A DNA stretch of 63,341 nucleotides from Segetibacter sp. (GCA_028288485.1 JAQBNO010000063.1:1-63341); one strand, 5' to 3'; counted from the first letter of the stretch, positions 12,432 to 38,800 are shown. Numbers and translations: made by a program. The notes: a model not told the origin generated them from the sequence alone.

Positions 12432-13826
12432 CTAAACTTTATCTAAAATTAATACCCAATCATTTCCTTCTTTCGGTTCTCCCGGCGGATTAAACGCTGT
12501 TACTCCTTTGTTCAAAAAAGCACCTATCTCTTTAGTACTCCCATCAACCGGGCTGTACCACGTTGCTTTTACACTTGTTCCGCCAATCTTACCCATGTTA
12601 ACTTTAAAGTTCTTACCTGTATAGGCATAAATGAAAGCGTAGTTCTTACCTCTTGTTGCAAGTAAGTAATCATACTTTATTCCTTGTTTGCCTGCAATCA
12701 TTGATTGATCCGGCACCCTTTCGAAATAGGGGCGCGAAAGCAGTAGATTTTTCAAATGTTTCATTTGCCCGGCACCCGGATGATTGATAGCATCAAACCA
12801 ATAAAACCGGGAACCAAAGGCTTTTCCTTTATCAGTTGGTTTATGAAACTGCATGATGCTGTTGTGACCATAGGTATATCCACTACCTCCTGCAAAAACA
12901 CTCCAGTAGCCATATCTTCTAACATCCCTGTCCTGCCAGTAAGGTAAAGTGGTGTCGTGTAAACCATAGGGGATTTGTTCATAAGAAGGTTCACCATCTA
13001 AAGTGGGCTTTACAGGTTTTTTGCTGTAATCAAGGTTGATGAACCTCCAGTTGTCTTCGCCAAAACGGTGAGGTTCCGACATGGAAGTGTCCTGTGCATA
13101 GTTGCGGTGGCCCGACTGAAACATGTTAAAATCCAACCAGTCTTCATTATGAAACCACGAGGAAGAAGTAGTGCGACCGCGCGGATGAAAGGTTATAAGA
13201 TGATTTGGATCTTTTTCATTTAGAGTTTGTCCGATGGTTTTCCAAACATTCAAAGAGTCGCTGCCTTTAATATCCCCACCATTTATCCAGATAATATTGG
13301 GTTTGTTCTTGTACCTGTCCGCGATCCAGCCCGCGTATATTTTTGCTTTTTCCGTGTTTACTAAACCACTTTTTACATTGCCACCCCAAACAGGTACCAG
13401 TCCCATATAAATACCCCTTTTTGCAGCTTCATCAATTATAAAATCAATGTGGTCCCAGAAATCGTATTGAACAGAGTCTGAAAAAGAATTGCCTTCAGTT
13501 ATTTTAGGAGTTGCTACGTTCCTTTTTATAAGGGCAGTATCACCATAGGCATTTACCGCGCTAACGCCATGTATCAAACTTACCTGTATTACATTGAAAC
13601 CTTTTTGTTGCCTGTCTTCCAGGTATTTTAGCGCTTCTTCCCGGTTAAGTTTAGCAAACAATAACCAACCTGTGTCGCCCAACCAGAAAAACGGTTCTCC
13701 GTTTTCTTTAATGAAATATCTTCCATCTGCCGAAATGCGCAGTTTACCCACCGTTTCAACTTGTGCTGTTGAAGAAGAGGCCATAAGTATAGCAACTAAA
13801 AAAGCAAGATACTTGCGATGAATCAT
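12432..13826 (-). CDS. Secreted GH140-like apiosidase (DUF4038 catalytic domain)
   Basis: 464 residues with a signal peptide (ending SSTAQ). The catalytic TIM barrel of the apiosidase-like family (DUF4038) starts with the hallmark FFWLGDTGWLLF at about residues 46-57. Candidate catalytic acids are Asp185 in IIWINGGDIKGSD and Glu279 in PTLDGEPSYEQ. The C-terminal beta-sandwich (about 375-464) is the domain often labelled a putative collagen-binding domain. GH140 of Bacteroides thetaiotaomicron (BT1012) cleaves the bond between apiose and the galacturonan backbone in RG-II. Length and domain order fit that enzyme. It is the strongest link between this locus and apiose-containing pectin. The gene is bracketed by inverted copies of the dispersed element (12381 and 14261). 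Family sure; exact linkage specificity inferred. Confidence 0.88.
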   Translation of the reverse strand: MIHRKYLAFLVAILMASSSTAQVETVGKLRISADGRYFIKENGEPFFWLGDTGWLLFAKLNREEALKYLEDRQQKGFNVIQVSLIHGVSAVNAYGDTALIKRNVATPKITEGNSFSDSVQYDFWDHIDFIIDEAAKRGIYMGLVPVWGGNVKSGLVNTEKAKIYAGWIADRYKNKPNIIWINGGDIKGSDSLNVWKTIGQTLNEKDPNHLITFHPRGRTTSSSWFHNEDWLDFNMFQSGHRNYAQDTSMSEPHRFGEDNWRFINLDYSKKPVKPTLDGEPSYEQIPYGLHDTTLPYWQDRDVRRYGYWSVFAGGSGYTYGHNSIMQFHKPTDKGKAFGSRFYWFDAINHPGAGQMKHLKNLLLSRPYFERVPDQSMIAGKQGIKYDYLLATRGKNYAFIYAYTGKNFKVNMGKIGGTSVKATWYSPVDGSTKEIGAFLNKGVTAFNPPGEPKEGNDWVLILDKV

Positions 13827-13960
13827 TTTCGTTATAGTTTTTAAGTCATACCCATTCTGTAACCAATATTCGTCATTACGAGTGCTTATTTCCGATCCTT
13901 GGAATAGTTCATTGAAAATGACATGGCAAAAAGCCCTTATTACAGTAAAACGTTGCCGTC

Positions 13961-14130
13961 ATTTCGAGGAACGAAGCAATCTGCTCTTACAATTTAATAG
14001 GCTTTCAAACTTCAAACAGCAGATTGCTTCGAAAAGCTTCCCAAGCCTGCAATGACAGGTCCGTTTTTGTCATTCCCACACAGGAGGAATCCCGGTCGCT
14101 CTAAGAAGATTCCTCGTACCTCGGAATGAC
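13961..14130. repeat. Hairpin-forming intergenic repeats of the GTCATTCC/GGAATGAC type
   Basis: Perfect 14-base arms CGAAGCAATCTGCT (13972-13985) and AGCAGATTGCTTCG (14018-14031) form one hairpin. GTCATTCC (14069-14076) and GGAATGAC (14123-14130) bound a second unit containing AGGAGGAATCCC and GATTCCTCGTACC. The second unit belongs to the same family as the tandem array at 51.65-51.9 kb. No gene is visible in 13827-14397. Confidence 0.8.
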
Positions 14131-14260
14131 ATGCCGTTTGTTATGCTGCCGTAGGAAGCGTCCCAGTCGCACTAATAATGAACCTCATTTTTCATTTCTG
14201 CGTTCATCCGCAAGGTGGTCATTCCAATAACCCCTTACTTTGCCGAATGTTGTAACCTCA

Positions 14261-14313: not shown

Positions 14314-14321
14314 AAACCCTT

Positions 14322-14397: not shown

Positions 14398-17300
14398 TTA
14401 CTGCACATCCAGGCTATTCACGCTCACCCCTTCCGCATCTTTGGATGTCAGCCTTACTTTATAATTGCCTGCATTTATCATTGAACCCGATGAACTGTTA
14501 ATGTAATTGTTCTTTGTTGGCCTTGTTGGTGTAAACTCTACGTTCTCTTCCCGCATCAAGGTTCCGTCGGCCATTAACAATTGCAGTTTACCGGTAATGT
14601 TTTTAGTATGCGGATTGTTATACGAAATAGTGAATGAATAAGTATCAGCCGCCCCGACGGCTATATTCCATTCAAGTACATTATTTGCCGATGCCTTTTC
14701 AAATATGGCGCGTTCTTTCCCATCAACTTTTCCTTTGGTTAGGCCAGGCCCTTCAAGACTTGCGTTTACAGCTTTGTAAGAAGTGACAGTTTTAAGATCG
14801 TAAGCAGGTTCTATATTAGATGCAGGTACAACGGTAACCGTGTACATCGATGCATTGAGCGCATTGTTTCCAAGAGAGACAGTGCTGCCTTTTGGGAACC
14901 TTTTTCTTAAAGCTATAAACTCTTGTCCCACATTATTTTTAATAACCGTCTTTGTGTCTTCAAAATCTTTAAGCCATTCCGGTCTTTGCTTTATCGTGGC
15001 ATCGAGGCCGATAAAAACATCTGCTTCAGTGGTCACATCAAATTGTACCAATTTAGATGTCTCGCTTGTAATCTTTGGCGTTCTTATCCACTCTGCTCCG
15101 TAAAAGTTGGAAGGAAGTGAACTAAAAGCAATTTTATCGTTTGTGTATAATGTGTCACCTGTATTTAACCACTCTTCCGGCGACCATGCATTATTTGTTT
15201 GGTTGCTGGTTGGCTTCACGTTAGTTATGATAGATGGAGACCTGGGAGCGGGTTTTAAAGCAGCATTTGCTGTTGCTATAGCGATAGCCGAAATAACGGC
15301 CTGGCCGGAAGCGGCACGAGGGAAGGAAATAACGAGTTTACCGCCTGTAACCTTTGCCCTGACTACTCTTTTTAAAGCAGCATCGTGGCCTACTTCTTTC
15401 CAAATATCGACGTCATTCAATTCTGTTTTCCCGTTTACAGCAACATCAAAAAGACGCCAGCCTGTACAATCCATTCCACCGCCGGTTCCTAACCAGGGTT
15501 CGGTAAAATATAACTCAACCCAGTATTCTCCATCCTGAACGGGAAACTCGTAACTCAGCTTTTCGCGGCCATACCTGAATGACTGGAACAACTTCCAGTC
15601 CATCGTACCTTTTACAGGGTCATTGGTTTTTCGTTGGCTTGCAAAATAAGAAGGCATACCGGGAAAATCTTTTGTCCAGGAAACGGAGCCCCAGGTATTG
15701 TTACCAGTTTTGTTACGGTCAGCCAACCAGGTGTTACCGTTCCTATCAACATAATCAGGACCGCCACAATTTACCCGGTACAAATAATTAAGATTAGGCT
15801 GCGGGGCTATAATAGGTTTTGAATCTTTTGAAAAAAGATTAAAGCCAGGTGCCTGGGGCAAATGGTTTAAAACAATATAATCAACTGCCACTTCTTTCCC
15901 GTTTACATAACCTACAGCATACAATACATTATAACTGACGTCTACTTTATCCCATTGAAAATGGGTTCCAATACCTTGCCTTGTTCTCCTTCCCAAGGAT
16001 CTTGTACGAACATCGTTGAACAATTCTACTTCATCACAATTGGAATAAACCGTGATGCTGTCTTTCAAACCGGGTTTAGTCCACCTGTCGGGCCATGTAT
16101 GCGACACTATATAAACCATCGGCTCTTTTTCTTTCGGTGCATAGTTTGAGCGATACATGTAAAATACATCAAGGGGTTCTTCCCAGGGAGTAAACAGGCC
16201 CTTGTAATTGACAGGCCCTATCCTGTCCGGTTCTCTATAACCCTCTCCGCCCTGCACTCTTCCGGGATTGTCGTGCGAACTAAATAGCCACATATAATGA
16301 CCTGCAGCTTTATCTCTCACCGTCTCTGCAAGCCTTACTTTCATTTCCATCAGTTGTGTCATCCGGTCTTCGCTGTAAACGCCGTTTTGATTAAACGGCC
16401 CTTCTGTATGCAGGTCCAAAGTTCTCCATGCTCCATACTCACCTATTAAGATCTGTCGCTTTACATCTTCAGCATAGGTCGTAGGGTCGCCGCCGTACGT
16501 TCCTGTCCAGTTTTGCGGTACATCCCAGTCGGTTCCTGTTCCACCATTACAGGTAGTTACAAGCCGCTGAGAAGAAGATGTGGGGTCAAGCAGTCTTATC
16601 AAATCAGTACATTCCTGTGCAAATTCCGTTGGTAATTTGCTTTCATTTTGTAATCCCCACATTACAATGGAAGGGCTGTTCCGTCTTTCTTTTACCCACT
16701 CTGTTAACAGCTTTTTGAAGTTGGTTTTGAACTCGGGCGTATCGTACCAGATATGTGCCCCGTTTTGTGTCCACCATAGTATTCCCAAGCTATCCCAGTA
16801 GTTATTATATCGAAGGTTGTGCGGCGAATGTCCGTCGCGAAAAGCATTAAAGCCAGCGGCTTTCATTTGCATCACCCTCGTCTTAATTTGCTCTGCACCA
16901 AATGCATGGCTCTTACCTAACTGGTGTTCATACTCGGCAATACCATTAATGAACACAGGCTTGCCATTTAGGAAAAACTGGTTAGTCGAAGAAGCTTTAC
17001 CTATCGGCCAGCTTATCCATCTTATTCCATAAGGTATTGTAAGTCGGTCAACTACTTTCCCGTTTTCAACTACTTCAGATACTACATTGTATAAATAAGG
17101 ATCTTCCAGTGACCAAAGACGGGGATTACTGATGACAGGAGGTTCCTGCTTTATTAAAGCAACAGTTCCAGGAAGCACTTTCTGGTTTGTTCTTGTTTCA
17201 ATAATCTTAACCCCATTTTTATTTTCTAGCCTGTTTACTACAGTTATGTTTTTTGCAACTGCTCCATAGTTTTTAACTTCTGTTGTTAAATGTAACTGAG

Positions 17301-17991
17301 CAGATGCGGAGGAGACAGTGGTATCGTTCCAAATATGAACACCAAAAGGTTCTATACGAACGGGGTCTGTTATTACCAGGTGAACAGGACGCACGATGCC
17401 TAATGGTTGTGAACCTTCAGAAAAACCGCGTTCATCTGAACAGCCGCCGCAAACCCAGGGAAGGTCTTTGATGTTGGCCGGGTGGTCAGCACGAACGGCA
17501 AGTATGTTAGACTTGTTGTTTAAGTTTATCTTATCGGTAACATCAATCGTAAAAGTCGTTCTTCCACCGGCATGATAACCGGCTTTTTTGCCATTCAGCC
17601 ACACGGTGGCATAAGAACCTACTCCTTCAAAGAACAGGAAATAACGCTGTCCCGCTTTTTGCGGTTTTACTGTAAATCTTTTGCGATACCATGCATAACC
17701 GTGACGATTTCCATGTCGCATTCGCCGGTAACCATGATAGTCGTCCCAGTTGTGCGGAACGTCGACCTGCTTCCAGTTTTTGTCATTAAAGGTTGTTTTT
17801 TCAAAACCATCAAAAGCAGTTTTATTATTATCATCAACAACAGAACGCCAACCTTTATCGAGAGAAATATCTGTTCGAAGATTGGTTTGGCAAAAAGCAG
17901 TTGAAATACCAAAGACGATCGATAAAACAGTTACGACAAACGCCGTGGTCTTTTTATTGTAAACTGAAATGTTCCTGTTCAACACATTCAT
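14398..17991 (-). CDS. Large secreted GH2 enzyme with malectin-like domain
   Basis: 1197 residues from the ATG at 17991 (MNVLNRN..., signal ending TAFCQ); the frame is open further upstream, but that would overlap GH95. Domains: GH2 sugar-binding domain (about 40-205), immunoglobulin-like domain (205-325), and catalytic barrel with acid/base Glu450 (MWGLQNESK) and nucleophile Glu518 (LIGEYGAW). Next comes a malectin-like carbohydrate-binding domain starting near LYRVNCGGPDYVDRNG and ending with VISAIAIA, then about 250 residues of beta-rich C-terminus. The start is 1 base after the GH95 stop, so the two are translationally coupled. Malectin domains bind di- and oligosaccharides and may hold the enzyme on its glycan. 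Likely an exo-beta-glycosidase of the beta-galactosidase/glucuronidase group; substrate unknown. Confidence 0.88.
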   Translation of the reverse strand: MNVLNRNISVYNKKTTAFVVTVLSIVFGISTAFCQTNLRTDISLDKGWRSVVDDNNKTAFDGFEKTTFNDKNWKQVDVPHNWDDYHGYRRMRHGNRHGYAWYRKRFTVKPQKAGQRYFLFFEGVGSYATVWLNGKKAGYHAGGRTTFTIDVTDKINLNNKSNILAVRADHPANIKDLPWVCGGCSDERGFSEGSQPLGIVRPVHLVITDPVRIEPFGVHIWNDTTVSSASAQLHLTTEVKNYGAVAKNITVVNRLENKNGVKIIETRTNQKVLPGTVALIKQEPPVISNPRLWSLEDPYLYNVVSEVVENGKVVDRLTIPYGIRWISWPIGKASSTNQFFLNGKPVFINGIAEYEHQLGKSHAFGAEQIKTRVMQMKAAGFNAFRDGHSPHNLRYNNYWDSLGILWWTQNGAHIWYDTPEFKTNFKKLLTEWVKERRNSPSIVMWGLQNESKLPTEFAQECTDLIRLLDPTSSSQRLVTTCNGGTGTDWDVPQNWTGTYGGDPTTYAEDVKRQILIGEYGAWRTLDLHTEGPFNQNGVYSEDRMTQLMEMKVRLAETVRDKAAGHYMWLFSSHDNPGRVQGGEGYREPDRIGPVNYKGLFTPWEEPLDVFYMYRSNYAPKEKEPMVYIVSHTWPDRWTKPGLKDSITVYSNCDEVELFNDVRTRSLGRRTRQGIGTHFQWDKVDVSYNVLYAVGYVNGKEVAVDYIVLNHLPQAPGFNLFSKDSKPIIAPQPNLNYLYRVNCGGPDYVDRNGNTWLADRNKTGNNTWGSVSWTKDFPGMPSYFASQRKTNDPVKGTMDWKLFQSFRYGREKLSYEFPVQDGEYWVELYFTEPWLGTGGGMDCTGWRLFDVAVNGKTELNDVDIWKEVGHDAALKRVVRAKVTGGKLVISFPRAASGQAVISAIAIATANAALKPAPRSPSIITNVKPTSNQTNNAWSPEEWLNTGDTLYTNDKIAFSSLPSNFYGAEWIRTPKITSETSKLVQFDVTTEADVFIGLDATIKQRPEWLKDFEDTKTVIKNNVGQEFIALRKRFPKGSTVSLGNNALNASMYTVTVVPASNIEPAYDLKTVTSYKAVNASLEGPGLTKGKVDGKERAIFEKASANNVLEWNIAVGAADTYSFTISYNNPHTKNITGKLQLLMADGTLMREENVEFTPTRPTKNNYINSSSGSMINAGNYKVRLTSKDAEGVSVNSLDVQ

Positions 17992-17992
17992 C

Positions 17993-20821
17993 CTAAATAC
18001 TTTTAAGCTCCACATTAAGTCTGTAAGTTTTCCCCTTTTCAGTTTTGATTTCTGTTGTTTTGTCACCATATTTTAGCAGGCAATCGTTACCGGTCTTAGA
18101 CAAAACTTCCACCTGCTGTAGTTGTCCTTTTTGCCATGTAAGGTTCAAAACAAATCCGCCTCTTACACAAATACCTTTGATTTCACCATTAGGCAGAGCT
18201 GATGGTAAAGCAGGTAACAGTTCAATATATTTTGTATGACTTTGCACCAACATTTCTCCTAATCCGGCAGCGCCTCCAAAATTGCCATCAATCTGGAATG
18301 GTGGATGTGCATCGAATAGATTGCGGTAAACGCCGCCCCTTTCACCTCCTGATGCGCCTTCAGCAGGACTAAGCAGTTTATTCATCATCATCATTGCATG
18401 GTCTCCATCTTTAAATCTTGCCCACAAGTTTACTTTCCACGCTAAACTCCAGCCGGTACCTTCATCGCCGCGGTACAACAACGACTGTCTTGCAGCTTTC
18501 ATCATATTTGCCGAATCCCAGGTAATATCTGTTCCCGGGTGTACCCCCCATAAATGAGATACATGCCGGTGTTTCTCCGTTGTATCTTCAACATCCTGCA
18601 TCCACTCCTGCAGATTTCCTAGCTTGCCAATTTTATTAGGCGCTATCTGGGCGATCTTTTCTGCCAGGGTTTGTGCAAACTCTTTGTCTGTATTTAAAAT
18701 GTCGGCGGCCTTTATGCAACTTTTAAACAAATCCCTGATGATTTGATGGTCCATTGTTGGCCCCGCTACTAGCCCCCGATGCTCGGGTGAGTTTGAAGGT
18801 GTACTGATTAAATAACCGGTAACAGGGTCTTTAATTAAGAAGTTTACAAAAAAGCTGGCCGCATCTTTCATTATTGGATATGCCCTTTTTTGCAAAAATT
18901 CTTTGTCCTGCGTAAACAGGTAATGCTCCCATAAATGGTAACTCAGCCATCCTGCTCCTGTAACCCATACACCATGATTGGATGCGTTTATCGGAGCAGT
19001 TCCCCTCCACAAATCGGTGTTGTGATGCAGCACCCAACCAGGTGCACCATAATGGGCTTTTGCGGTTAATTTTCCTGCTTCTGCTGCCTCATCAATTAAA
19101 TTAAACAGGGGCTCGGCACACGCAGATAAATTCAACATTTCCGCAGGCCAGTAATTCATTTGAAGGTTGATGTTAGTAGTATACTTACTGCCCCAGGGCG
19201 GTGTTAGTAAATTATTCCAAATGCCCTGTAAGTTAGCCGCCTGGCCTCCCGGACGGGAAGAAGATATCAATAAATAACGGGCATATTGAAAATAGAGGGT
19301 AACAAGAGATGGATCTGAGACGTTGTTATATTTCAGGATCCTTTCATCAGTCGGTAAATCCTGGTTATTGCTGCTTCCAAGATTTAACGACAACGTATTG
19401 AAGTACGACTCATAATCTTTAGTATGAGTTTCTTTTATAACCTCGTACTTTTTGCCTTTAATATTTTGTAAAGCTTGTTTAGCAATAACACCGGGGTTAC
19501 CAGAAACATCTTTGTAACTTTTAAAACTGGTAGCAGCTGTAAGATAAAGTGTTACTTCATCTGCACCCGTAATCGATATTTTATCATTTGCTGAAATTAC
19601 TTTGCCGCCAACAGCAGTTACATGCAAATAACTTACACCATTTAAAACACCGTTTCGAACCTTTAGAGACAGCCCGATTGTGTTGTTATCTATTCTCTTT
19701 GTGGAAGAAAGTTTATGCGGACTTTCAAGCAATGCATCCAAATTGAGCATGCCCCCCTTACTGGCTGTAAGATGCATAACAACGGCATTACCCGGAGCTG
19801 TTGCTAAATATTCACGGGTATAAGTAACGCCGTCTTTTGTATACGAAACACGTGAAACCGCATTGGTTATATCCAGTTCGCGGCGATAATTAGTAACATT
19901 GTTTGCGTTTTTAAAACGCATATATACATCGCCAAACGGCTGGTAACTTGCTTCGAACTGCGGAAATGCAGGCGGATTAGTGTCTTGCACCCAATACTTC
20001 CATGTTGTGTTTAATTCCAAACCATTTTTATTACTTCCTCCTTCAGGGTAAACAAAAAATGATTTAGCTGCGTTTTTCACGCCTGTTAATCCGCCCTTGT
20101 CGTACCAGTTAATTACGTGGATAGCTATTTGATTCTTTCCAGCCTTAAGTACCGATGATGGTATGACGTACCTGCGATTGCCCGAGATGCCTTCTTTTGT
20201 CCCGATTTGTTTTCCGTTCACATAAGTAAAGTCAAGGTCTCTGATGCGACCAAGTTCTATTACCAAATTTTTACCCACCCAGTCCTGCGGTAAATTGAAA
20301 GATGTTCTGAACCAGGCTGCTCCATCCTCTCCCTCAAGATAGGTTTCTTCCCAACCCTCTGGCGTTGGCAGTTTCATTTCTTTCCAGGCTGCGTCGTTAA
20401 ACGAAGTAGCTGAGGGGGCTGTATTGGAACGAACTTTATTAAACCAGGCATTTTTCAACGAATCATAATCATCTTCATTACTCTTCCTGCCCATGAAATG
20501 TTTTGCCGCCATATCTTCCGCTTCCTTTTGCTTGCCCTCGAAAAGCAATTGGCGAATAGGTTGAAGATAGTTAACGGCACCGTCGCGATGATGTGGACGT
20601 GGGCCATCGGTCCATAGGGTTCCTTCATTAAATTGGACCCTTTCCTCACTTACTCCGCCATAAATCATCGCTCCCATCCTTCCGTTTCCTATGGGTAAAG
20701 CATCAGTCCACTTTTGGGAGGGCTGTTTATACCATAGTTTCAAATCCCGCTTTACAGCCTGACCTCTTGTATTAAAACAGGTTAAGGCGAAAACCATTGC
20801 TAAAAAGCTACTTATTTTCAT
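17993..20821 (-). CDS. Secreted GH95 alpha-L-fucosidase/alpha-L-galactosidase with an inserted jelly-roll domain
   Basis: 942 residues, longer than the roughly 800 typical of GH95. After a signal peptide the family opening LWYKQPSQKWTDALPIGNGRMGAM is clear. Around residues 120-285 it is interrupted by a beta-sandwich resembling the GH2 sugar-binding domain (GAAWFRTSFNLPQDW, VNGKQIG). The GH95 beta-domain resumes at PFGDVYMRF. In the (alpha/alpha)6 barrel the conserved residues are present: NIN in TTNINLQMNYWPAE, the Glu of TPSNSPEH, His of KHRHVSHLWG and Asp of FQIDGNFGG. GH95 removes alpha-L-fucose or alpha-L-galactose, both found in RG-II side chain A. It precedes GH2-malectin by 1 base and follows ThuA by 30 bases. 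Confidence 0.92.
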   Translation of the reverse strand: MKISSFLAMVFALTCFNTRGQAVKRDLKLWYKQPSQKWTDALPIGNGRMGAMIYGGVSEERVQFNEGTLWTDGPRPHHRDGAVNYLQPIRQLLFEGKQKEAEDMAAKHFMGRKSNEDDYDSLKNAWFNKVRSNTAPSATSFNDAAWKEMKLPTPEGWEETYLEGEDGAAWFRTSFNLPQDWVGKNLVIELGRIRDLDFTYVNGKQIGTKEGISGNRRYVIPSSVLKAGKNQIAIHVINWYDKGGLTGVKNAAKSFFVYPEGGSNKNGLELNTTWKYWVQDTNPPAFPQFEASYQPFGDVYMRFKNANNVTNYRRELDITNAVSRVSYTKDGVTYTREYLATAPGNAVVMHLTASKGGMLNLDALLESPHKLSSTKRIDNNTIGLSLKVRNGVLNGVSYLHVTAVGGKVISANDKISITGADEVTLYLTAATSFKSYKDVSGNPGVIAKQALQNIKGKKYEVIKETHTKDYESYFNTLSLNLGSSNNQDLPTDERILKYNNVSDPSLVTLYFQYARYLLISSSRPGGQAANLQGIWNNLLTPPWGSKYTTNINLQMNYWPAEMLNLSACAEPLFNLIDEAAEAGKLTAKAHYGAPGWVLHHNTDLWRGTAPINASNHGVWVTGAGWLSYHLWEHYLFTQDKEFLQKRAYPIMKDAASFFVNFLIKDPVTGYLISTPSNSPEHRGLVAGPTMDHQIIRDLFKSCIKAADILNTDKEFAQTLAEKIAQIAPNKIGKLGNLQEWMQDVEDTTEKHRHVSHLWGVHPGTDITWDSANMMKAARQSLLYRGDEGTGWSLAWKVNLWARFKDGDHAMMMMNKLLSPAEGASGGERGGVYRNLFDAHPPFQIDGNFGGAAGLGEMLVQSHTKYIELLPALPSALPNGEIKGICVRGGFVLNLTWQKGQLQQVEVLSKTGNDCLLKYGDKTTEIKTEKGKTYRLNVELKSI

Positions 20822-27041: not shown

Positions 27042-27044
27042 TGC

Positions 27045-27080
27045 TGGTGAGTTGTGAGTTGTGAGTTGTGAGTTGTGAAT
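27045..27080. repeat. GAGTTGTGA tandem repeat at the kinase 5' end
   Basis: Four imperfect copies of GTGAGTTGTGA-type units immediately precede the preferred kinase start. Read in frame they would encode HNSQLTTHNS, which has no family counterpart. Confidence 0.8.
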
Positions 27081-27435: not shown

Positions 27436-27490
27436 GTACAAGAGTGCGACGCAACGATGTTTAATAGTAGCATATTTGTTTGGCTCCGAA
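27436..27490 (+). repeat. Dispersed dyad-core element, copy 8 (forward)
   Basis: GTACAAGAGTGCGACGCAAC followed by GATGTTTAATAGTAGC and then TTGGCTCCGAA, about 45-100 bases beyond the permease stop. The remainder of 27084-27435 shows no gene. Confidence 0.85.
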
Positions 27491-27534
27491 TCATTTACTT
27501 ATTAACTCTTGACCTTTTAACTAATTAATTACTT

Positions 27535-28539: not shown

Positions 28540-28543
28540 GTTT

Positions 28544-30052: not shown

Positions 30053-30089
30053 TCTTTATGGCTTTAATCAGGTGACAAAGAAATATGAC

Positions 30090-30728: not shown

Positions 30729-30788
30729 GCAAACACGTTAGTAAGGTTTATACGTTATGGGGCGAGAAGTAAACTGCTAATTTTTGCG

Positions 30789-31757: not shown

Positions 31758-31786
31758 GGCAAGTAATCGTTAGGGAATCGTAAGAC

Positions 31787-31885
31787 TTTTCGTAGTGTTC
31801 TTCGTGCTTCGTAGTGTACTTCGTGTTCTGAAAGAGGAGCACAAAATGCACGAAGTGAACACAAAGTGCACAAAGGAAAAGGCCG
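31787..31885. repeat. Imperfect inverted repeat of TTCGTGTTC-type units
   Basis: CTTCGTAGTGTACTTCGTG and CACGAAGTGAACACAAAG-like arms, themselves built of repeated TTCGTG units, form a large imperfect hairpin in the 162-base gap between the transketolase C-subunit and the binding protein. It may reduce or terminate read-through. Confidence 0.6.
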
Positions 31886-31919
31886 AACTAATTTCTATTT
31901 TTTAACTTTAGAAAGTTCG

Positions 31920-32888
31920 TCAAAGTCTTTCTAAGAGCTTCAATGCAGCCTCTGCAATACCTTTTTCAGAAATACCATAATGACTTAATATTTCTGTTTG
32001 AGAACCTGTGACCGTATACTCGTCGGGTATACCCATTAATTTAAACGGATTATGAAACCTGTTCTGCAATAAATAAGAAGCACAAGCCTCTCCTAAACCT
32101 CCGTAAACACTATGTTCTTCTACTGTTATAATTGCTTTTCCAGATAAAGCTACATAAGCCAACAAATCATAATCGAGCGGTTTAATCGTGTGCATGCTGA
32201 TAACCGTTGTAGTTATGTCAAATTCAGACTCCAGTTTTTTTGCTGCCTGTAATGCAGGATACACTGTTTCACCGTTTGCAATAATTACAAGGTCCTCGCC
32301 TTCTCTTATGATCCGCCCTTTACCAAATGCAAAATCGCTTTCTTCTTCCGGGGTTAATAACGGCATTACTTTTTTTCCAAAACGCAGGTATATGGGCTGC
32401 TTTAATTCGGCCGCCTTCCTGATTGCCTGTTCTGTTTCAAAATTGTCTGCCGGTGCAACGATGATAAGGTTATTAATTGCCCGAAGAACGGCGTAATCAT
32501 GCAGGCTATGATGGGTTGTTCCTAAGGCGCCATAACTTACTCCTGCACTTATACCAACCAGTTTTACGGGGTTATCGGAATAAGCTACATCATTTTTAAT
32601 TTGCTCCAATGCCCTTGCTGTAAGAAAACATGCAGGCGAAACGGCAAATGCTTTTTTACCTGCAGAAGCAAGCCCCGCAGCTACGCCCACCAGGTTTTGT
32701 TCAGCTATTCCTATTTCAACAATCTGCTTAGGAAACTTTTGACCAAAAGGAGCGAGTTTTCCAGAACCACGTGAATCGCTCGTTACAGCAACAATGTCTT
32801 TATCGTTAGCAGCTAATGCTTGCAGCGTTTCAGAAAAAACTTCCAGGTTAGCTTTGTCAATTCCTATTTTTTCAACAGTAAGTCCCAC
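31920..32888 (-). CDS. aptB-like: Transketolase-type enzyme, C-terminal subunit (candidate D-apulose-4-phosphate transketolase)
   Basis: 322 residues covering the pyrimidine-binding and C-terminal domains of transketolase. The catalytic Glu that activates thiamine diphosphate is in IVEIGIAEQNLVG, and the substrate-side His pair is in GTTHHSLHDYA. The start is GTG at 32888. With the adjacent N-terminal subunit, 24 bases upstream, it forms a two-chain transketolase. D-Apulose-4-phosphate transketolase (AptA/AptB in Actinobacillus) has exactly this split architecture and moves a ketol unit to an aldose phosphate. Other split transketolases exist, for example sulfosugar ones, so the substrate rests on gene context: ABC importer, FGGY kinase and fucose-isomerase-like enzyme. 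Confidence 0.87.
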   Translation of the reverse strand: MGLTVEKIGIDKANLEVFSETLQALAANDKDIVAVTSDSRGSGKLAPFGQKFPKQIVEIGIAEQNLVGVAAGLASAGKKAFAVSPACFLTARALEQIKNDVAYSDNPVKLVGISAGVSYGALGTTHHSLHDYAVLRAINNLIIVAPADNFETEQAIRKAAELKQPIYLRFGKKVMPLLTPEEESDFAFGKGRIIREGEDLVIIANGETVYPALQAAKKLESEFDITTTVISMHTIKPLDYDLLAYVALSGKAIITVEEHSVYGGLGEACASYLLQNRFHNPFKLMGIPDEYTVTGSQTEILSHYGISEKGIAEAALKLLERL

Positions 32889-32912
32889 AAAAAATGATTT
32901 AGTTATTAATTC

Positions 32913-33737
32913 TTATAAATCTGCTAAAGCACCGTCCAATTCCTCCATTGCATTTGCATACTGGTCGGGCGTTGGCACGCCATGATGCCACTTCAATACA
33001 TTCTCCATATAACTTATTCCTTTGCCTTTAACCGTATGTGCAATTACAAGGCTGGGTTTATCTGTTGCAAAAGGCAGGGCCTGGAAAGTTTCTTTAAGGG
33101 CCTTAAAATCATGGCCATTTACATGGCGAACTTCCCAGCCAAAGCTTTCAAACTTTCCATCTATAGGGTCGGTATTACATACTTCTGCTGTTGTACCTGA
33201 TATTTGTAATTTATTATGGTCTATAATAGCACAGAGGTTATCGAGTTTATAATGCGCAGCCGTTAATGCAGCTTCCCAATTAGAGCCTTCAGGCAGTTCG
33301 CCATCACCTAAAAGAGTGAATACACGAAAGTCTTTATTATCCATTTTTGCAGCGATAGCAGTACCCACACTAATTGGTAAGCCATGACCAAGGGCACCTG
33401 TATTTTGTTCTATACCATGCACCTTTCTTGTAGGGTGACCTATGTAGTGTGACTTATACTTACAGAGTGTTTCCAAATCACTTTCGGGGAAAAAGCCTTT
33501 ATCAGCCAACACAACAAAAAGTGCTTCCACACAATGTCCTTTACTTTGAATATACCTGTCCCGGTCTGGCGACTTAAAGTTGTGTGGCCCGACATTCATT
33601 GTATGGTTATACAATACGGTCAAAATATCGATGCACGACAAACTTCCACCCGTGTGACCTGCTTTTGCGCCATATATATACTTCAGGATGTTCTTCCGGT
33701 AAGCTATCGATTTTATTGCTAATTCCTTTTCAGTCAT
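32913..33737 (-). CDS. aptA-like: Transketolase-type enzyme, N-terminal subunit
   Basis: 274 residues from the ATG at 33737 (MTEKELAIKS); the 19 extra codons upstream translate non-conserved sequence. It is the thiamine-diphosphate pyrophosphate-binding half. Landmarks are AGHTGGSLSCIDILT, QSKGHCVEALF, GSLGHGL-type GALGHGLPISVG, and the GDG...N metal-diphosphate motif LGDGELPEGSNWEAA...IIDHNK. The C-terminal part ends GISYMENVLKWHHGVPT, matching the end of this domain in transketolase. It starts the transketolase-ABC transport operon that runs down to 27.5 kb. A reverse dispersed element sits about 130 bases upstream. Confidence 0.88.
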   Translation of the reverse strand: MTEKELAIKSIAYRKNILKYIYGAKAGHTGGSLSCIDILTVLYNHTMNVGPHNFKSPDRDRYIQSKGHCVEALFVVLADKGFFPESDLETLCKYKSHYIGHPTRKVHGIEQNTGALGHGLPISVGTAIAAKMDNKDFRVFTLLGDGELPEGSNWEAALTAAHYKLDNLCAIIDHNKLQISGTTAEVCNTDPIDGKFESFGWEVRHVNGHDFKALKETFQALPFATDKPSLVIAHTVKGKGISYMENVLKWHHGVPTPDQYANAMEELDGALADL

Positions 33738-33865
33738 ATTATGCCCCCAGCCCCTAAAGGGGAGTTTTAAAAGCGCGTTGATTTCCCAAAGCACCTTTAT
33801 TTTGAAATTTGTTTCAGGTCGGTATGAAAAATTATTTTTGGGTTACCGGCAGTGGTGCTTTCGGC

Positions 33866-33891
33866 AACATCGTTGCGTCGCACTCTTGTAC
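33866..33891 (-). repeat. Dispersed dyad-core element, copy 9 (reverse)
   Basis: CAACATCGTTGCGTCGCACT followed by CTTGTAC; an ACCGGCAGTGGTGCTTTCGG tail lies just before it. It faces the forward copy at 33999 across about 110 bases. Confidence 0.85.
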
Positions 33892-33998
33892 TTATTGGCC
33901 ACCATTTAACGAAGTATGCAAGGCTTTAAAACAGCGGGGAACTAAATTTTGTTGAAAACAATACACCCTTTTGCTTCGCGCCGGGAAGAATACTAAAA

Positions 33999-34058
33999 GT
34001 ACAAGTGAGTGACACAACGATGTTTAATAGTATTCCAAATGTTGGTCCCCAAAAACCA
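33999..34058 (+). repeat. Dispersed dyad-core element, copy 10 (forward, GTGACAC variant)
   Basis: GTACAAGTGAGTGACACAAC followed by GATGTTTAATAGTATT and TTGGTCCCCAAAAACC, about 95 bases beyond the isomerase stop. Confidence 0.85.
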
Positions 34059-34080
34059 ACTAAAGCAAAAGTGCTATTTA

Positions 34081-34152
34081 CGATTCACAATTCCCCATTC
34101 ACTACTCACTGCTCACTACCGGGCACTCAAGGTTGCCCATTTCACCACTCAC
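34081..34152. repeat. ATTCACTA-like short tandem array at the isomerase 3' end
   Basis: CATTCACTACTCACTGCTCA-like units run up to the isomerase stop codon and appear to provide it (the TAG lies in CACTATTCCCC). The family is the same as at 14322. Confidence 0.7.
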
Positions 34153-35576
34153 TATTCCCCATGCTGGTACACTTCCCAACCCATATAATTACCCATTGCT
34201 TCTTTTAGTATACCTGCAGTCTTTGACGCATTCATTACTACGTGATGTTCGAACCCGTTCCTGCATACGTACTGCATCAATCCCTGTAGGTTAGATATCT
34301 GTGCTACCGCTCTTGTACCGAACGTATTCAATGCATCATCGGTCAATGCACCTTCGCCAACATAAGCTTTTATAATTCCTTTCGGGTCGTCGGTACTAAT
34401 TCTGCCGTAAGTAAGCGGTGATGCAGGGGTACGACCGGCCAAAGCGCCAAAGGTATTTTCTTCACCAACCGTTGTACCAAGAATGGGCGCAGTACTTATT
34501 TCAATATCAGGAAGGAATGATTTTGCCCAGTTGCCGCAATGGAACAACACACATTTCTCATCGTCATCTGCGTAGTTGTTATTCCAGTCAACCAAAGCAC
34601 TTGGAGAGCCGGAGGCAAGTTGCATAGCATACATACTTAGGGTACCGGTAACATCAACCTCGCATGCACTTGGTAACATATTCTCGCTCATCATACTCAT
34701 GCTCGTACACACGTTACAGCCATAGTTTTGCTGTAACGAAGTCCAGCATTGAATTGCTGTTGCATCGAGGGCATGTTCTTCCATAAAGAAGTTGAGTGCA
34801 ACATCGAGTTTCGCGATCTGTATTAATTTATCTTCCGGCGTTCGGCCGGTAGGGGTATACGCTTTAATTTTATCGAGCCTTTCCTTAACGCTGTTGTCAG
34901 CAATAGTCAGCCTGTTTGCATGACCGAGGATATGCGACAAATCAACCGTTACAACAGAGATGCCGTTACGTTGTAAAATTTTCTCACTATAACGAACCGT
35001 ATTAAATGCACCCGGTCTTGCACCGACCGCGCCAATCCTTACCCGGCGCAATCCTCTAACCACCCGGCAGGTAGCGACAAAATTATTCAGGTCGTTAATA
35101 AAACTTGGGTCAGAAGGATGAACTACGTGTTTTGTAGTTAGGGAATACTTTATTCCATATTGGTAGAAGTTATTGCAGACAGAAATCTTACCGCACCATG
35201 CGTCTCTACGGCGGGCAACATCCATTTTATTCAAATCATCGGGGTATGCCTGCACCAACACAGGAACATTCAAGTCGGCTAATTTAAGCGTTTCAGCCAC
35301 TCCCTTTTCGTCGCCAAAATTGGGGAGTACAACAAGCACTCCCATTATTTCGTCGGCAAATCTTTTAAAGAGCGTTGCACATTTCTGTGATTCCTGGAAA
35401 GTTTCCACACCGCCAAGCTTCGTTTCATTTTCATCAAGCATTACCGGTTTGATGCCTGTTTTTGCAAAGGCTTGCAAAAGGTCAGCACGGCATTCGCCTA
35501 CTAATTTATCAGGGAAAAAATCACGGTTACCAATAATTACTCCTAACGTAATTTTTTCGTTTGTTTTTATTTCCAT
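34152..35576 (-). CDS. L-fucose-isomerase-like aldose-ketose isomerase (candidate D-apiose isomerase)
   Basis: 474 residues from the ATG at 35576 (MEIKTNEKITLGVIIGNR). Two N-terminal Rossmann-like domains (about 1-170 and 170-300) precede the C-terminal catalytic domain of L-fucose/L-arabinose isomerases. Probable metal ligands are Glu306 in SACEVDVTG, Asp330 in LVDWNNNY and His346 in VLFHCGN, matching the Glu/Asp/His set of the family. It would turn an imported aldose into its ketose for the FGGY kinase. The described D-apiose isomerase belongs to this group, as I recall. Fucose itself is less likely because no fuculose aldolase is present. It sits 40 bases after the DeoR regulator and is likely co-transcribed with it. 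Confidence 0.85.
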   Translation of the reverse strand: MEIKTNEKITLGVIIGNRDFFPDKLVGECRADLLQAFAKTGIKPVMLDENETKLGGVETFQESQKCATLFKRFADEIMGVLVVLPNFGDEKGVAETLKLADLNVPVLVQAYPDDLNKMDVARRRDAWCGKISVCNNFYQYGIKYSLTTKHVVHPSDPSFINDLNNFVATCRVVRGLRRVRIGAVGARPGAFNTVRYSEKILQRNGISVVTVDLSHILGHANRLTIADNSVKERLDKIKAYTPTGRTPEDKLIQIAKLDVALNFFMEEHALDATAIQCWTSLQQNYGCNVCTSMSMMSENMLPSACEVDVTGTLSMYAMQLASGSPSALVDWNNNYADDDEKCVLFHCGNWAKSFLPDIEISTAPILGTTVGEENTFGALAGRTPASPLTYGRISTDDPKGIIKAYVGEGALTDDALNTFGTRAVAQISNLQGLMQYVCRNGFEHHVVMNASKTAGILKEAMGNYMGWEVYQHGE

Positions 35577-35616
35577 TTTTTTCTTTATGAGAAGCTTCTG
35601 GTTAGATTGATGTTTC

Positions 35617-36381
35617 TTACCCTGCAATTATTAGTTCAATTTCATGGTCTTTAAACACTGCTCTGTGTTTATCTTCGATGCCGGGATCGGTAATGATATA
35701 GTCGATCAACGATAATGCACCAAGACTGGCAAAGGCGCTTTTTCCGATTTTACTTGAATCAGCTACGAGGTAGGTAGTATCGGCAGATTCGATCATCGCT
35801 TTTTTTACAACAAGGTCGCTGATGCTCGGATAAGTAAGTCCCGATTTTAATGATATACCGGCGGTCGCTAAAAACAGTTTTTGAACATTAAGACCTTTAA
35901 AAAAATCGGCAGCTTTCTGACCTGTTAACGAAAGCGTTGGTGGTTTAAATTCTCCGCCAGTAACAATTACGTCAATTCCAGGTTCTGCACCTAACATCAA
36001 GGCTATATTCAAAGCATTGGTAATAACCGTAAGCTCTTTAAAACCTTTCAGTTTTTTAGCGATTTCAGTAGTTGTTGACCCGGAATCTAAAATTATGGTA
36101 TCACCACTTTCAATAAATTCAAGACACTTTTTTGCTATCAGTTCTTTCTTATCTATGTGATCCTGGTTTCCAAGGGAAAAAGCCTGTACCTGGTCTTTGA
36201 TATTTTTAAGAAAGGCACCTCCGTGTTCCTTGATCACCAACCCGTCCTTTTCAAGCTTCTCCAAGTCCTGCCGGATAGTAACTTCAGTAACTTTAAAAAT
36301 TCTGGCGAGGTCAATTACTTTCGCAGATCCATCTTCCTTAATTAATTCGAGGATCTTTTCCCGTCTTTGATTCGGTATCAT
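35617..36381 (-). CDS. DeoR-family transcriptional regulator
   Basis: 254 residues from the ATG at 36381 (MIPNQRREKILELIKEDG); a GTG six codons upstream is the alternative. The N-terminal DeoR helix-turn-helix (IDLARIFKVTEVTIRQDLEKLEKDG) is followed by the sugar-phosphate-sensing domain with ILDSGSTTTEIAKKL, VTGGEFKPPTLSLTG and LVADSSKIGKSAFAS. These regulators usually repress sugar catabolic operons and are released by a phosphorylated intermediate. It is first in a probable operon with the isomerase. The expected target is the apiose-type catabolic and transport genes; upstream DNA (36430-36490) is very A-rich with CGAA repeats, which may hold its operator. Confidence 0.93.
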   Translation of the reverse strand: MIPNQRREKILELIKEDGSAKVIDLARIFKVTEVTIRQDLEKLEKDGLVIKEHGGAFLKNIKDQVQAFSLGNQDHIDKKELIAKKCLEFIESGDTIILDSGSTTTEIAKKLKGFKELTVITNALNIALMLGAEPGIDVIVTGGEFKPPTLSLTGQKAADFFKGLNVQKLFLATAGISLKSGLTYPSISDLVVKKAMIESADTTYLVADSSKIGKSAFASLGALSLIDYIITDPGIEDKHRAVFKDHEIELIIAG

Positions 36382-36581
36382 GGCCGGATAGTTAGTCACA
36401 ATAAAAAAAGGGCTTTTTTTTGGGAAGTTATATTTTCCGGTTCGAAGATAAACGAAAAAAATAATAAATAAAAGAAAAAAAAGGAAGTTGCATTATTTAG
36501 AAAATTTTAATCCACTTTCCTTTAATTACGACCCGACCTAATAAGCCGGCGGGCAAAAGTGATTTACCACTTAATGTTAAT

Positions 36582-36632: not shown

Positions 36633-36715
36633 GGCATTTCCTTAGCCCGGGAGGAGGTTACCAATCAGCACTTACCCGGCTCTTCCTGAGCCACATAACA
36701 TCCGCTTATTTTTAC

Positions 36716-36745
36716 TATAAACACGTTGCTCCTCTGGAGCAACCT
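36716..36745 (-). terminator. Perfect 8-bp hairpin just after GH127
   Basis: GTTGCTCC and GGAGCAAC (36727-36734, 36738-36745) form a perfect stem with a 3-base loop, 22 bases after the GH127 stop. No strong T run follows. The preceding CTATAAACA resembles the openings of the repeats at 44377 and 44799 (CTACAAATATT), so it may be a repeat-family hairpin rather than a dedicated terminator. Confidence 0.5.
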
Positions 36746-36766
36746 CCACGTCTTACTACTTTGCAT

Positions 36767-38800
36767 TTACCTCGAAACCGGCATCCATACCGTCATTTCA
36801 GAATGTCCGCGATTACCCCATGCATAATATGGAACCAATTTTACGGGAACCTGGACAGGAGCTTTTTTAGAAACTTCACGATATAAAGTGTTCCAGTTTG
36901 TTGGAGATATTACATCCGCCTTCGCTTCTAATGACATGATATCACTGTTTTCAATTCTTATCATTTTAGGCGTAAACTGACTGTGAATTGGCAGAGACAA
37001 ACCGAAGACTTTATTATTTTTTGAAAGATCAGTAGACTCGAGGCAATAAACAACAGGTCCTCTTTTAACTGTTACCTGGTTACGTGTTTCCTCCACCAAA
37101 GGATTTGCTTCAATCAATTTCGCATCCATGGGAAGTATTAATTCAATTTTATCGCGTGTAGCCCATTTTCTTTTTAACTCAGTATACTGTCCCGGCGTAA
37201 CAACACCCGTGTATGGTTTACCATTAATTGAAATTTGCGCTTTATCAGCCCATCCCGGGATACGCATAAATACAGAAAATTCTTTTCCTGGTGCCTGGTC
37301 AACAGTTACTGTAACATTGCCATCCCATGGGTAGTTGGTAACCTGGTTCAATTTTAAAGGAGAGCCATCTTTAAGGGTTGTGGAAACATTACTTCCACCG
37401 TATAAATTAAACCAAACTCCTTTATCTGAAATACTGTAGGCGTAGTTGCTTACTTCGGCTATCGTACGAACCACGTTCGGAGGGCAGCAATTGGACAAGG
37501 AAATATAACCGACCCTGTCTTTTGACCAACGTTGCTGAAACGGCAGATCATCGGAAAAAGCAAGTGGATTTGTATACAGGAACTTCTTACCGTTAAGACT
37601 GATACCGGATAACACACTGTTGTATAAAGCCAGCTCCATAACATCTGCATATTTGGCTTCACCTGTTAAGAGGAGCATTCTGTAGTTCCAAAGAACATTG
37701 CCAATATTTGCGCAGGTTTCGTTGTGGGCGGTAAAATTTGGAAGCTGGTAATCACGTCCGTAGGCCTGGTGGATCTTCTGCACATAATCAGGTTTATACA
37801 CTGTACCGTCGGGAGAAACTCCATCATACAAAGAACCGCAGCCGCCTGTTACATACATTTTCCGGTTAACCACATCATTCCACATTACATCGAGTCGGTT
37901 TATCAAAGATGTATCGCCGGTCTCGGCATATAAATCAGCAACACCGGCATATAAATAATTTGCGCGTACTGCATGACCTGTTACTTTCGTTTGTTGGCGA
38001 AACGGAATACGGTCCTGGTTGTCGTCTGTTCCGTCATTGATTTTTCCTTTTATGTCGATAAGGTGTTTGGCAAGTTCGAGGTAGCGGGGGTCGCGGGTAG
38101 TGCGGTACATTTCGACCACACCCATATAATGTGAAGGACAAATGGCATTGCGGGCAAGCGCAGGTGAAGCTTTTTGATAAAAGTTATAGAGATATTCGGT
38201 CGCTTTTTTTGCAATGTCCAGGAAATTCGTTTTTCCTGTCACCCGGTTGTGTATAGTTGCAGCGGTCATGAGGTGACCGATATTATAAGCTTCAAAACTA
38301 AGGCGGTCTTCAAACTGGTTTGCAACGCCGGTTTTTCTCTGGTTGATCATCGCTTTTGTGTATATATAACCATCTTCCCTTTGTGATTTCCCGATTGTAG
38401 TTATGGCTTTATCGAGCATTTCATCCAGCTTTTTATCGCGGGTAATTGCGTACATGGTAACGACGGCTTCCATGGTCTTGTAGAAGTCGCCATCATGAAA
38501 CGATGGACCTTTATGGGAACCGGTATCAAGACCTGCAGCTATTTCGAAGTTTTTGTAAGCATGGCTGATATTGGCATCGGTATACACATTCCAAATATTA
38601 GGAACCATGGAATCTCTGCAAACACGGAAGCGATCGGCCCAAAAACCTTTCGTCCATCTCACATCTTCAATATCTAAACCTGAGAGTTTAGCATAAGCGC
38701 TTTTTGAGGTATTCACCAGTCCTTTGTCCTGCGCTTGCAATCGATTTAACAGCAGAAGCCCGATAAGGAAAAAAGCAAGCAAAACGTTTTTTTGTTTCAT
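36767..38800 (-). CDS. Secreted GH127-family glycoside hydrolase
   Basis: 677 residues with a signal peptide (ending NRLQAQ). It is a DUF1680/GH127 (alpha/alpha)6-barrel enzyme: opening motif VRWTKGFWADRFRVCRDSMVP, middle motif GHAVRANYLYAGVADLYAETGD. All zinc-thiolate residues of the family are present: Glu361 and Cys363 in HNETCANIGN, and the Cys438-Cys439 pair in SNCCPPNVVRT. A C-terminal beta-domain follows (GPVVYCLESTDLS). GH127 enzymes hydrolyse beta-L-arabinofuranosides, and a member acts on a branched acidic sugar in the RG-II locus of Bacteroides. The gene stands alone between the DeoR-isomerase operon and the BASS transporter, with about 500 bases upstream. Confidence 0.93.
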   Translation of the reverse strand: MKQKNVLLAFFLIGLLLLNRLQAQDKGLVNTSKSAYAKLSGLDIEDVRWTKGFWADRFRVCRDSMVPNIWNVYTDANISHAYKNFEIAAGLDTGSHKGPSFHDGDFYKTMEAVVTMYAITRDKKLDEMLDKAITTIGKSQREDGYIYTKAMINQRKTGVANQFEDRLSFEAYNIGHLMTAATIHNRVTGKTNFLDIAKKATEYLYNFYQKASPALARNAICPSHYMGVVEMYRTTRDPRYLELAKHLIDIKGKINDGTDDNQDRIPFRQQTKVTGHAVRANYLYAGVADLYAETGDTSLINRLDVMWNDVVNRKMYVTGGCGSLYDGVSPDGTVYKPDYVQKIHQAYGRDYQLPNFTAHNETCANIGNVLWNYRMLLLTGEAKYADVMELALYNSVLSGISLNGKKFLYTNPLAFSDDLPFQQRWSKDRVGYISLSNCCPPNVVRTIAEVSNYAYSISDKGVWFNLYGGSNVSTTLKDGSPLKLNQVTNYPWDGNVTVTVDQAPGKEFSVFMRIPGWADKAQISINGKPYTGVVTPGQYTELKRKWATRDKIELILPMDAKLIEANPLVEETRNQVTVKRGPVVYCLESTDLSKNNKVFGLSLPIHSQFTPKMIRIENSDIMSLEAKADVISPTNWNTLYREVSKKAPVQVPVKLVPYYAWGNRGHSEMTVWMPVSR

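Follow-up and report, generated by a model that had tools for sequence, protein, structure and literature searches.

A candidate aceric acid cassette adjoining a probable D-apiose operon in a rhamnogalacturonan II locus of Segetibacter

We analysed a 63,341-base stretch of DNA from Segetibacter sp. (JAQBNO010000063.1), hereafter the window, which is an entire contig of a 6.4 Mb assembly. Judging from its genes, the window would be part of a utilisation locus for rhamnogalacturonan II (RG-II) with two sugar-specific catabolic modules, the first (25521-36399) very probably for D-apiose and the second (39300-44299) for aceric acid; we put the chance of this reading as a whole at about even. The second module is a cassette encoding a RuBisCO-like protein (RLP), an OiaK-like kinase, a protein with the Asp/Glu racemase fold (AspRac) and an SBF-family importer. 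With somewhat better than even confidence, we propose that these proteins constitute an undescribed aceric acid pathway of Bacteroidota, in which AspRac would be the aldose-ketose isomerase, and that a related RLP/kinase/AspRac trio is present on an alphaproteobacterial plasmid. The apiose route is probably of a known kind, and the cassette route for aceric acid is what would be new. An earlier note on the window had described the apiose system and listed a GH127 enzyme. The apiose system is supported and the GH127 gene is present, but the note had overlooked the cassette and the specific identity of the GH127 enzyme as an aceric acid hydrolase.

The four cassette genes are on the minus strand, upstream of the GH127 gene and on the same strand as it. 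The RLP (43052-44299) is OiaX-like, scoring 515 bits on NF042437 (cut-off 700). The adjacent gene, which overlaps that of RLP by 4 bp, encodes a DUF1537 sugar-acid kinase (41652-43055) that scores 462 bits on the OiaK model NF042436 (cut-off 700) and 184.9 bits on the 3-oxo-tetronate kinase model NF043035, below the cut-off of 350. AspRac (40639-41298; PF01177) is a candidate aldose-ketose isomerase, and the last gene (39300-40619; PF01758) encodes a PanS-like importer of the SBF/BASS family (NF047939 PanS, 210 bits; cut-off 400). The sub-cut-off OiaX and OiaK scores were rejected as proof of a new function, because OiaK of Rhizobium etli itself, from an apiose-type locus, scores only 476 bits on NF042436 (cut-off 700).

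With six RLPs of Proteobacteria and haloarchaea, among them R. etli OiaX, RLP shares 50-53% identity. The cassette RLPs form one Bacteroidota clade (support 96/96) separate from six reference RLPs, with long branches among the references; the tree covers 77 of the 80 loci introduced below, three being omitted through open reading frame (ORF) calling or length. At 14 positions, at least 95% of 79 cassette RLPs share a residue that does not occur in any of 11 reference RLPs. In particular, residues Q100, N190, and V338 are located beside the catalytic Asn, metal-ligand, and Ser-Gly loops, as placed by motif, and these cassette-specific residues suggest a third specificity. The AlphaFold model of AspRac (pLDDT 96) superimposes on Asp/Glu racemases in Foldseek with TM scores of up to 0.80. 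By eye mapping of the motifs, residue Cys77 is retained in 68 of 68 sequences and the position of the second racemase Cys is occupied by Gln185 in all 68. Single-Cys racemases exist, and Gln185 in place of the second Cys would fit single-base chemistry.

The cassette is conserved across Bacteroidota. One scan of named genomes gave 168 relatives, of which the best 80 serve as our loci; the sample is tilted to the Bacteroidota RLP clade because the scan patterns were derived from Bacteroidota RLPs. The view around each RLP is ±10 kb or shorter. ORFs were called by a simple script, and the cassette gene counts were rechecked by tblastn, which detects RLP in 80, the OiaK-like kinase in 75, AspRac in 77, and SBF in 75 of the 80 loci. 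Strict-order and upstream-gene counts refer to the 78 loci having an RLP ORF, 61 of which show the strict order RLP, kinase, AspRac, SBF. Three of the loci (L045, L054, and L089) are short contigs, and one genome contributes two loci, with RLP inside a cassette in L031 and a solitary second copy in L032. Orthologs of the cassette occur in named isolates, for example of Pedobacter, Mucilaginibacter, and Segetibacter. Five relatives with a strong RLP match have the common order RLP, kinase, AspRac, SBF, one of them (G003) with a small extra frame before SBF; in a sixth (G002), RLP is 51% identical and the kinase is in two pieces. Among 244 Chitinophagaceae genomes, RLP and AspRac are found in an identical set of 22.

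Some of these loci have further features. In Hymenobacter (L059, L067, L088, L091, L102, and L109), a gene of an AP_endonuc_2 (xylose-isomerase-like) cluster is located directly upstream of RLP and possibly encodes an alternative or additional isomerase. A contig assigned to Verrucomicrobia (L086) carries the full cassette with an RLP 77% identical, which reflects either transfer or a binning error. In L034, L037, L045, L050, L057, L078, and others, the cassette is accompanied by a module of two CaiB-type coenzyme A transferases, a solute-binding-like protein, a GFO/IDH oxidoreductase, and a MaoC hydratase. This module, which has counterparts (best matches 41-64% identical) at about 155-165 kb of the plasmid NZ_CP156083.1 (L156, L117), is possibly a second undescribed RG-II acid pathway.

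The GH127 gene next to the cassette (36767-38800, minus strand) encodes an aceric acid hydrolase, AceA, scoring 1174.7 bits on NF049879 (cut-off 950); its best match in the Protein Data Bank (PDB) is 5mqo (837.6 bits). In 23 of 78 loci, the gene immediately upstream of RLP is AceA, encoded on the same strand and separated from RLP by -54 to 128 bp; the next commonest genes at this position account for 6 loci each. On the RLP tree, where 23 of 75 rows have this arrangement, it has changed at least 7 times. A gap of at most 150 bp to the RLP match is found for AceA in 11 of the 22 RLP-bearing Chitinophagaceae genomes and for the RG-II marker BT1020 in none; the coordinates behind these gaps were copied by hand, and in some genomes the genes are on different contigs. 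In view of RLP, AceA is found in 36 of the 80 loci, BT1020 in 11, the FGGY kinase in 7, the C-terminal transketolase subunit in 5, and GH140 in 4. At the genome level, AceA is above cut-off in 22 of 22 RLP-bearing Chitinophagaceae genomes, compared with 41 of 244 overall (hypergeometric P = 2e-20); the co-occurrence P values here and below are not corrected for relatedness. The same holds for all 50 RLP-bearing genomes tested from other families of Bacteroidota, giving 72 of 72 for the RLP-bearing whole genomes tested. These 50, drawn from the 80 loci, comprise L052 and named isolates that do not belong to Chitinophagaceae; no kinase is in view in two of them (L074 and L077).

From these genes we would predict the following route. 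AceA would free aceric acid, and the SBF transporter would import it as an anion. AspRac would turn the aldose into the 2-ketose HOOC-C(OH)(CHOH-CH3)-CO-CH2OH, a beta-keto acid, and the OiaK-like kinase would phosphorylate the CH2OH group of this ketose. RLP would then decarboxylate the phosphorylated ketose to 5-deoxy-L-xylulose 1-phosphate, which the rhamnose-pathway aldolase RhaD could split into dihydroxyacetone phosphate (DHAP) and acetaldehyde. OiaX decarboxylates 3-oxo-isoapionate-4-phosphate, and 3-oxo-isoapionate is HOOC-C(OH)(CH2OH)-CO-CH2OH. Because the aceric acid 2-ketose is the same compound plus one methyl, the OiaK-like kinase and RLP could take it with little change. The aldose-ketose step is assigned to AspRac because AspRac is the only cassette enzyme left. 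The (3R,4S) configuration of 5-deoxy-L-xylulose 1-phosphate is the one handled by rhamnulose-1-phosphate aldolase. RhaD (TIGR02632) exceeds its cut-off in each of the 22 RLP genomes, that of the window among them, with an internal stop in the copy of one genome (G080). However, RhaD is also found in 10 of the 14 RLP-negative genomes of the same search (32 of 36 in all); because it is common without RLP, its presence indicates feasibility only.

Several observations weigh against the proposed link to aceric acid. The RG-II marker BT1020 is likewise present in 22 of 22 RLP-bearing Chitinophagaceae genomes, so that co-occurrence at the genome level ties the cassette to RG-II degraders and not to aceric acid alone; we rejected AceA co-occurrence as proof of the substrate, since only adjacency discriminates. 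Adjacency is itself incomplete. The view around RLP does not include AceA in 44 of 80 loci. Of the 22 Chitinophagaceae genomes, 3 have it on a different contig and one (G027) at a distance of 717 kb, and the figure of 23 of 78 rests partly on close relatives (Pedobacter, Chitinophagaceae). In the other direction, 19 of the 41 AceA-positive Chitinophagaceae genomes have no RLP, and a search of the Bacteroides ihuae control, whose AceA is above cut-off, found none either. Three loci (L068, L074, and L077) show no OiaK in view, and a BT1020-like gene follows RLP there. The apiose isomerase is enriched with RLP, being found in 15 of 22 RLP-bearing genomes compared with 3 of the 19 other AceA-positive genomes (P = 0.001); we read this association as some RG-II degraders investing in rare-sugar catabolism and others not. 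To our knowledge, an isomerase role for the Asp/Glu racemase fold has no precedent.

The same four genes could serve another acid of RG-II, a reading that we consider unlikely. The product of an aldolase acting on 3-deoxy-D-lyxo-heptulosaric acid (Dha) or 3-deoxy-D-manno-octulosonic acid (Kdo) would be isomerised to 3-oxo-tetronate, whose phosphorylation and decarboxylation would give DHAP. Apart from the branch, which it lacks, 3-oxo-tetronate is the same beta-keto acid, and the kinase weakly matches the 3-oxo-tetronate kinase model (185 bits, cut-off 350). In addition, a gene like BT1020, which presumably releases Dha, is in view in 11 of 80 loci and follows RLP in L068, L074, and L077. However, no aldolase is among the cassette genes, the commonest immediate neighbour is AceA, and BT1020 lies within 5 kb of RLP in 0 of 22 Chitinophagaceae genomes, 18 of which have both on one contig. 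A second DUF1537 kinase in Croceibacterium, accompanied by PdxA and a dihydrodipicolinate synthase (DHDPS)-family protein, fits such an acid better.

Rather more doubtful is that the substrate is as proposed and the RLP is OiaT-like, a transcarboxylase/hydrolase that would convert phosphorylated acerulose to lactate and 3-phosphoglycerate with no aldolase needed. None of the four cassette genes encodes an aldolase (the neighbourhoods were not searched for aldolases), and homologues of Tpi-like proteins or RpiB are found in 0 of 80 loci in view. The RLP is 51% identical to R. etli OiaX and about equally close (51-53%) to RLPs of Microvirga, Cupriavidus, Azospirillum, and Bradyrhizobium that have no annotated triose-phosphate isomerase (TPI) or RpiB in view; three of these four have enolase or pyruvate kinase nearby, and we take them, without proof, as OiaT-like. 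The lack of TPI and RpiB is not diagnostic, because a Sinorhizobium RLP locus (L150) that is OiaX-like at residues 100 and 338 shows none in view either. At these two positions, the residue pair of the cassette RLP fits neither reference group. The best curated model is that of OiaX (NF042437), though no OiaT model matched for comparison, and the RhaD aldolase is at hand in 22 of 22 RLP genomes.

The first module of the window is an operon on the minus strand, with a gene or candidate gene for every expected step of non-oxidative D-apiose use. It comprises a DeoR-family regulator (35617-36399; PF00455, PF08220), a fucose-isomerase-like candidate D-apiose isomerase (34152-35627; PF02952, Fucose_iso_C), the N-terminal, thiamine pyrophosphate-binding subunit (32913-33794; PF00456, Transketolase_N) and the C-terminal subunit (31920-32888; PF02779, PF02780, Transket_pyr and C) of a split transketolase, an RbsB-like sugar-binding lipoprotein (30789-31757; PF13407), a DUF2291 lipoprotein (30090-30728; PF10054, 198 bits), an RbsA-like ATPase with two PF00005 domains (28544-30052), an RbsC-like permease (27535-28539; PF02653), and an FGGY kinase of GlpK-like lineage (25521-27083; PF00370, PF02782; TIGR01311, 571 bits, cut-off 590) that is a candidate D-apulose kinase. 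GH140 would free D-apiose, which RbsABC would import, the isomerase convert to D-apulose, the FGGY kinase phosphorylate, and the split transketolase cleave; these steps are likely on homology and gene content. The non-oxidative pathway reportedly consists of apiose isomerase, apulose kinase, and a split apulose-4-phosphate transketolase.

The isomerase is 54% identical over 466 residues to a Klebsiella protein. Its counterparts in Klebsiella, Sodalis, and Rahnella are located with a split transketolase, an FGGY kinase, an RbsB-type binding protein, DUF2291, RbsA, and RbsC, and the remaining 10 matches in the plasmid collection are 24-29% identical, mostly proteins of the fucose/arabinose isomerase family. 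No PDB relative is found at E 0.01. The true start of the isomerase is probably about 20 codons inside the called frame, since its homologues begin there. The N-terminal transketolase subunit is 49-50% identical to proteins of E. coli SE15 (49%) and Klebsiella, and the C-terminal subunit is 41% identical to both. The binding protein is 44% identical to that of the R. etli apiose locus, 43% to that of Klebsiella, and 35% to that of E. coli SE15. In the SE15 cluster, the kinase is 39% identical to the window kinase and two short-chain dehydrogenases/reductases (SDRs) occupy the place of the isomerase; according to PMC13001218, E. coli strains with this type of cluster grow on D-apiose.

The kinase is the least certain part of the operon. 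It is 43-44% identical to GlpK, compared with 36-39% to the kinases of enterobacterial apiose clusters. Outside Bacteroidota, the protein of the plasmid collection that it matches best is from Caballeronia (49%) and lies inside a cluster of transketolase, binding protein, DUF2291, RbsA, and RbsC genes, and in the kinase tree the window kinase and this transketolase-linked kinase form a clade (100/100) apart from GlpK and the enterobacterial kinases, with long branches. As the tree places it on another branch, we rejected it as an ortholog of the enterobacterial apulose kinase. Taken together, homology and gene content bear out the non-oxidative D-apiose route read by the earlier note, and the operon very probably encodes it with a kinase from a different FGGY branch. 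The check attached to that reading gives a mixed picture: by identity the isomerase sides with the apiose-type Klebsiella protein, and the kinase is nearer GlpK than the enterobacterial apiose-cluster kinases but groups with the transketolase-linked Caballeronia kinase.

We consider it highly improbable that this apiose system is all that matters and that the neighbouring genes are unrelated, although the operon has a candidate for every expected gene and its isomerase and transketolase have counterparts in apiose-type clusters, of which one is linked in PMC13001218 to growth on apiose. The cassette adjoins the operon on the same strand, and among the genomes tested RLP occurs only in those with RG-II markers (AceA in 72 of 72). 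In addition, degradation of apiose by Bacteroides and Clostridia is reported in PMC13001218 with reference to Carter et al. 2018; apiose use in Bacteroidota is thus not new in principle, which weakens the novelty claimed earlier. Carter et al. 2018 is also cited in PMC6302742 and PMC10103415. The apiose isomerase is present in 20 of 244 Chitinophagaceae genomes, of which two (G095 and G131) have neither RLP nor an aceric acid hydrolase above cut-off.

ApnO makes the apiose-derived substrate known for the OiaX-type RLP. We take the gene annotated as 'phosphogluconate dehydrogenase C-terminal' to be ApnO, judging by its context. OiaX-type loci of R. etli, Microvirga, and Sinorhizobium carry ApnO together with ApsD- and ApnL-type genes. 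A search with the R. etli protein detects ApnO in none of 6 RLP genomes, among them that of the window, and matches all four control plasmids, which were picked as ApnO carriers. Homologues of ApnO and ApnL are found in 0 of 80 loci, and the ApsD-like matches there are only GFO/IDH proteins, at most 26% identical. We rejected the absence of ApnO as a feature special to the cassette. Several proteobacterial RLP/kinase loci (L145, L147, L148, and L149) likewise have no ApnO in view, which is a further point against our proposal. The absence of ApnO therefore speaks against apionate, not for aceric acid. In three of these loci (L145, L147, and L149, on Agrobacterium, Bradyrhizobium, and Rhizobium plasmids), RLP and a DUF1537 kinase are accompanied by an SDR-type gene and by TRAP, ABC, or permease transporters, with ApnO absent from the annotation in view. 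The RLP/DUF1537 kinase pair seems to be reused for other beta-keto acid sugars, and the cassette is probably not an oxidative apiose route.

Least probable of all is that RLP and the OiaK-like kinase form an oxidative (apionate) branch beside the non-oxidative one. The best curated models (OiaX and OiaK) and the 15 of 22 versus 3 of 19 enrichment of the isomerase would speak for it, as would the apiose-operon genes that are in view of RLP both in the window and in 10 of 77 loci, including Segetibacter. Against it, ApnO is not found in 6 RLP genomes or 80 loci, no ApnL and no close ApsD are found in those loci, 7 of 22 RLP genomes have no apiose isomerase, 5 of 20 isomerase genomes have no RLP, and a separate SBF importer would be superfluous.

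The window also encodes other hydrolases. The genes listed by the earlier note are all intact open frames, and their Pfam families agree. GH140 apiosidase (12432-13826, minus strand; PF13204, 390.6 bits) has 3kzs/5msy as its best PDB match (481 bits), and its Asp185 (the D of GGD) and Glu279 (the E of DGEP) align with the GGD and DGEP motifs of these structures; we take 5msy to be BT1012. GH2 proteins are assigned by Pfam at 8690-11470 and 14398-18069, the first with no PDB relative at E 1e-60. GH95 (17993-20821, minus strand; PF22124, 575 bits; PDB 7kmq and 4ufc) is a candidate RG-II side-chain hydrolase. A SusD/SusC pair (45228-49895, minus strand; PF07980, PF14322, PF07715) is located upstream of the cassette, and a BT1020-like RG-II enzyme (61660-63339, minus strand; PF24067, PF22585) is truncated by the contig end. 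The window also encodes a 568-residue protein (22203-23909) with no Pfam domain and a weak match to the C-terminal part of an alpha-galacturonidase model, and a protein (57033-58622) with DUF5060, a distant apiosidase-like domain, and DUF5605. No RNA element scores above the gathering score in the window.

A related trio is found on the Croceibacterium plasmid NZ_CP156083.1, of which 188,250 of 200,048 bases were read. RLP and the kinase adjoin a GH127 gene, and a 56% identical AspRac is located elsewhere with a major facilitator superfamily transporter. The neighbour of this AspRac gene is 44% identical to the DUF5060 protein of the window. The plasmid (L117, L151, L154-L156) also carries a split transketolase, an FGGY kinase, GH95, and relatives of several hydrolases of the window, and it looks like an RG-II/pectin catabolic plasmid. 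The 188,250 bases contain no ApnO, ApsD, or ApnL. Against our proposal, they contain no SBF and no window-type isomerase either, and the GH127 beside RLP was rejected as an aceric acid hydrolase (87 bits on NF049879, cut-off 950). Because its GH127 fails this model, the plasmid supports the RLP/kinase/AspRac trio as a unit, not the substrate. The second DUF1537 kinase mentioned above is located at 124-133 kb, near PdxA, the DHDPS-family protein, and an iron-containing alcohol dehydrogenase.

The locus offers a candidate gene for each step of aceric acid use after release from RG-II. With orthologs in named isolates, the question is reduced to a short set of enzyme assays. If the proposal is true, the RuBisCO superfamily gains a new substrate and a wider catabolic reach, and the Asp/Glu racemase fold a new reaction, that of a sugar isomerase. 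Judged by titles and abstract openings, none of the open-licence matches listed describes aceric acid catabolism beyond hydrolysis; aceric acid is mentioned in papers such as PMC6353982 and PMC12282258.

Four known systems can be compared with the window. BT1003, BT1012, and BT1020, which we take to be the names of RG-II enzymes of B. thetaiotaomicron, have likenesses in its GH127 hydrolase, GH140, and BT1020-like enzyme. Bacteroides ihuae, the control genome, has the aceric acid hydrolase but yielded no RLP. With the non-oxidative D-apiose pathway (MetaCyc PWY-8089), the window shares the isomerase, the split transketolase, RbsB, DUF2291, RbsA, and RbsC; it differs in having a DeoR-type regulator instead of the annotated sugar-binding regulator, a kinase on a different FGGY branch, and RG-II hydrolases surrounding the operon. 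The OiaK/OiaX pair of oxidative D-apiose use in R. etli (L111) is adjacent and in the same order as in the window, with RLP 51% and the kinase 44% identical. In contrast to the R. etli locus, AspRac and the SBF importer are found instead of ApnO, ApnL, or a close ApsD, and RLP differs at residues 100, 190, 321, and 338. AspRac shares its fold (TM up to 0.80) and Cys77 with Asp/Glu racemases, from which it is distinguished by the invariant Gln185 in place of the second catalytic Cys, as mapped by eye, and by its strict co-occurrence with RLP in 244 genomes.

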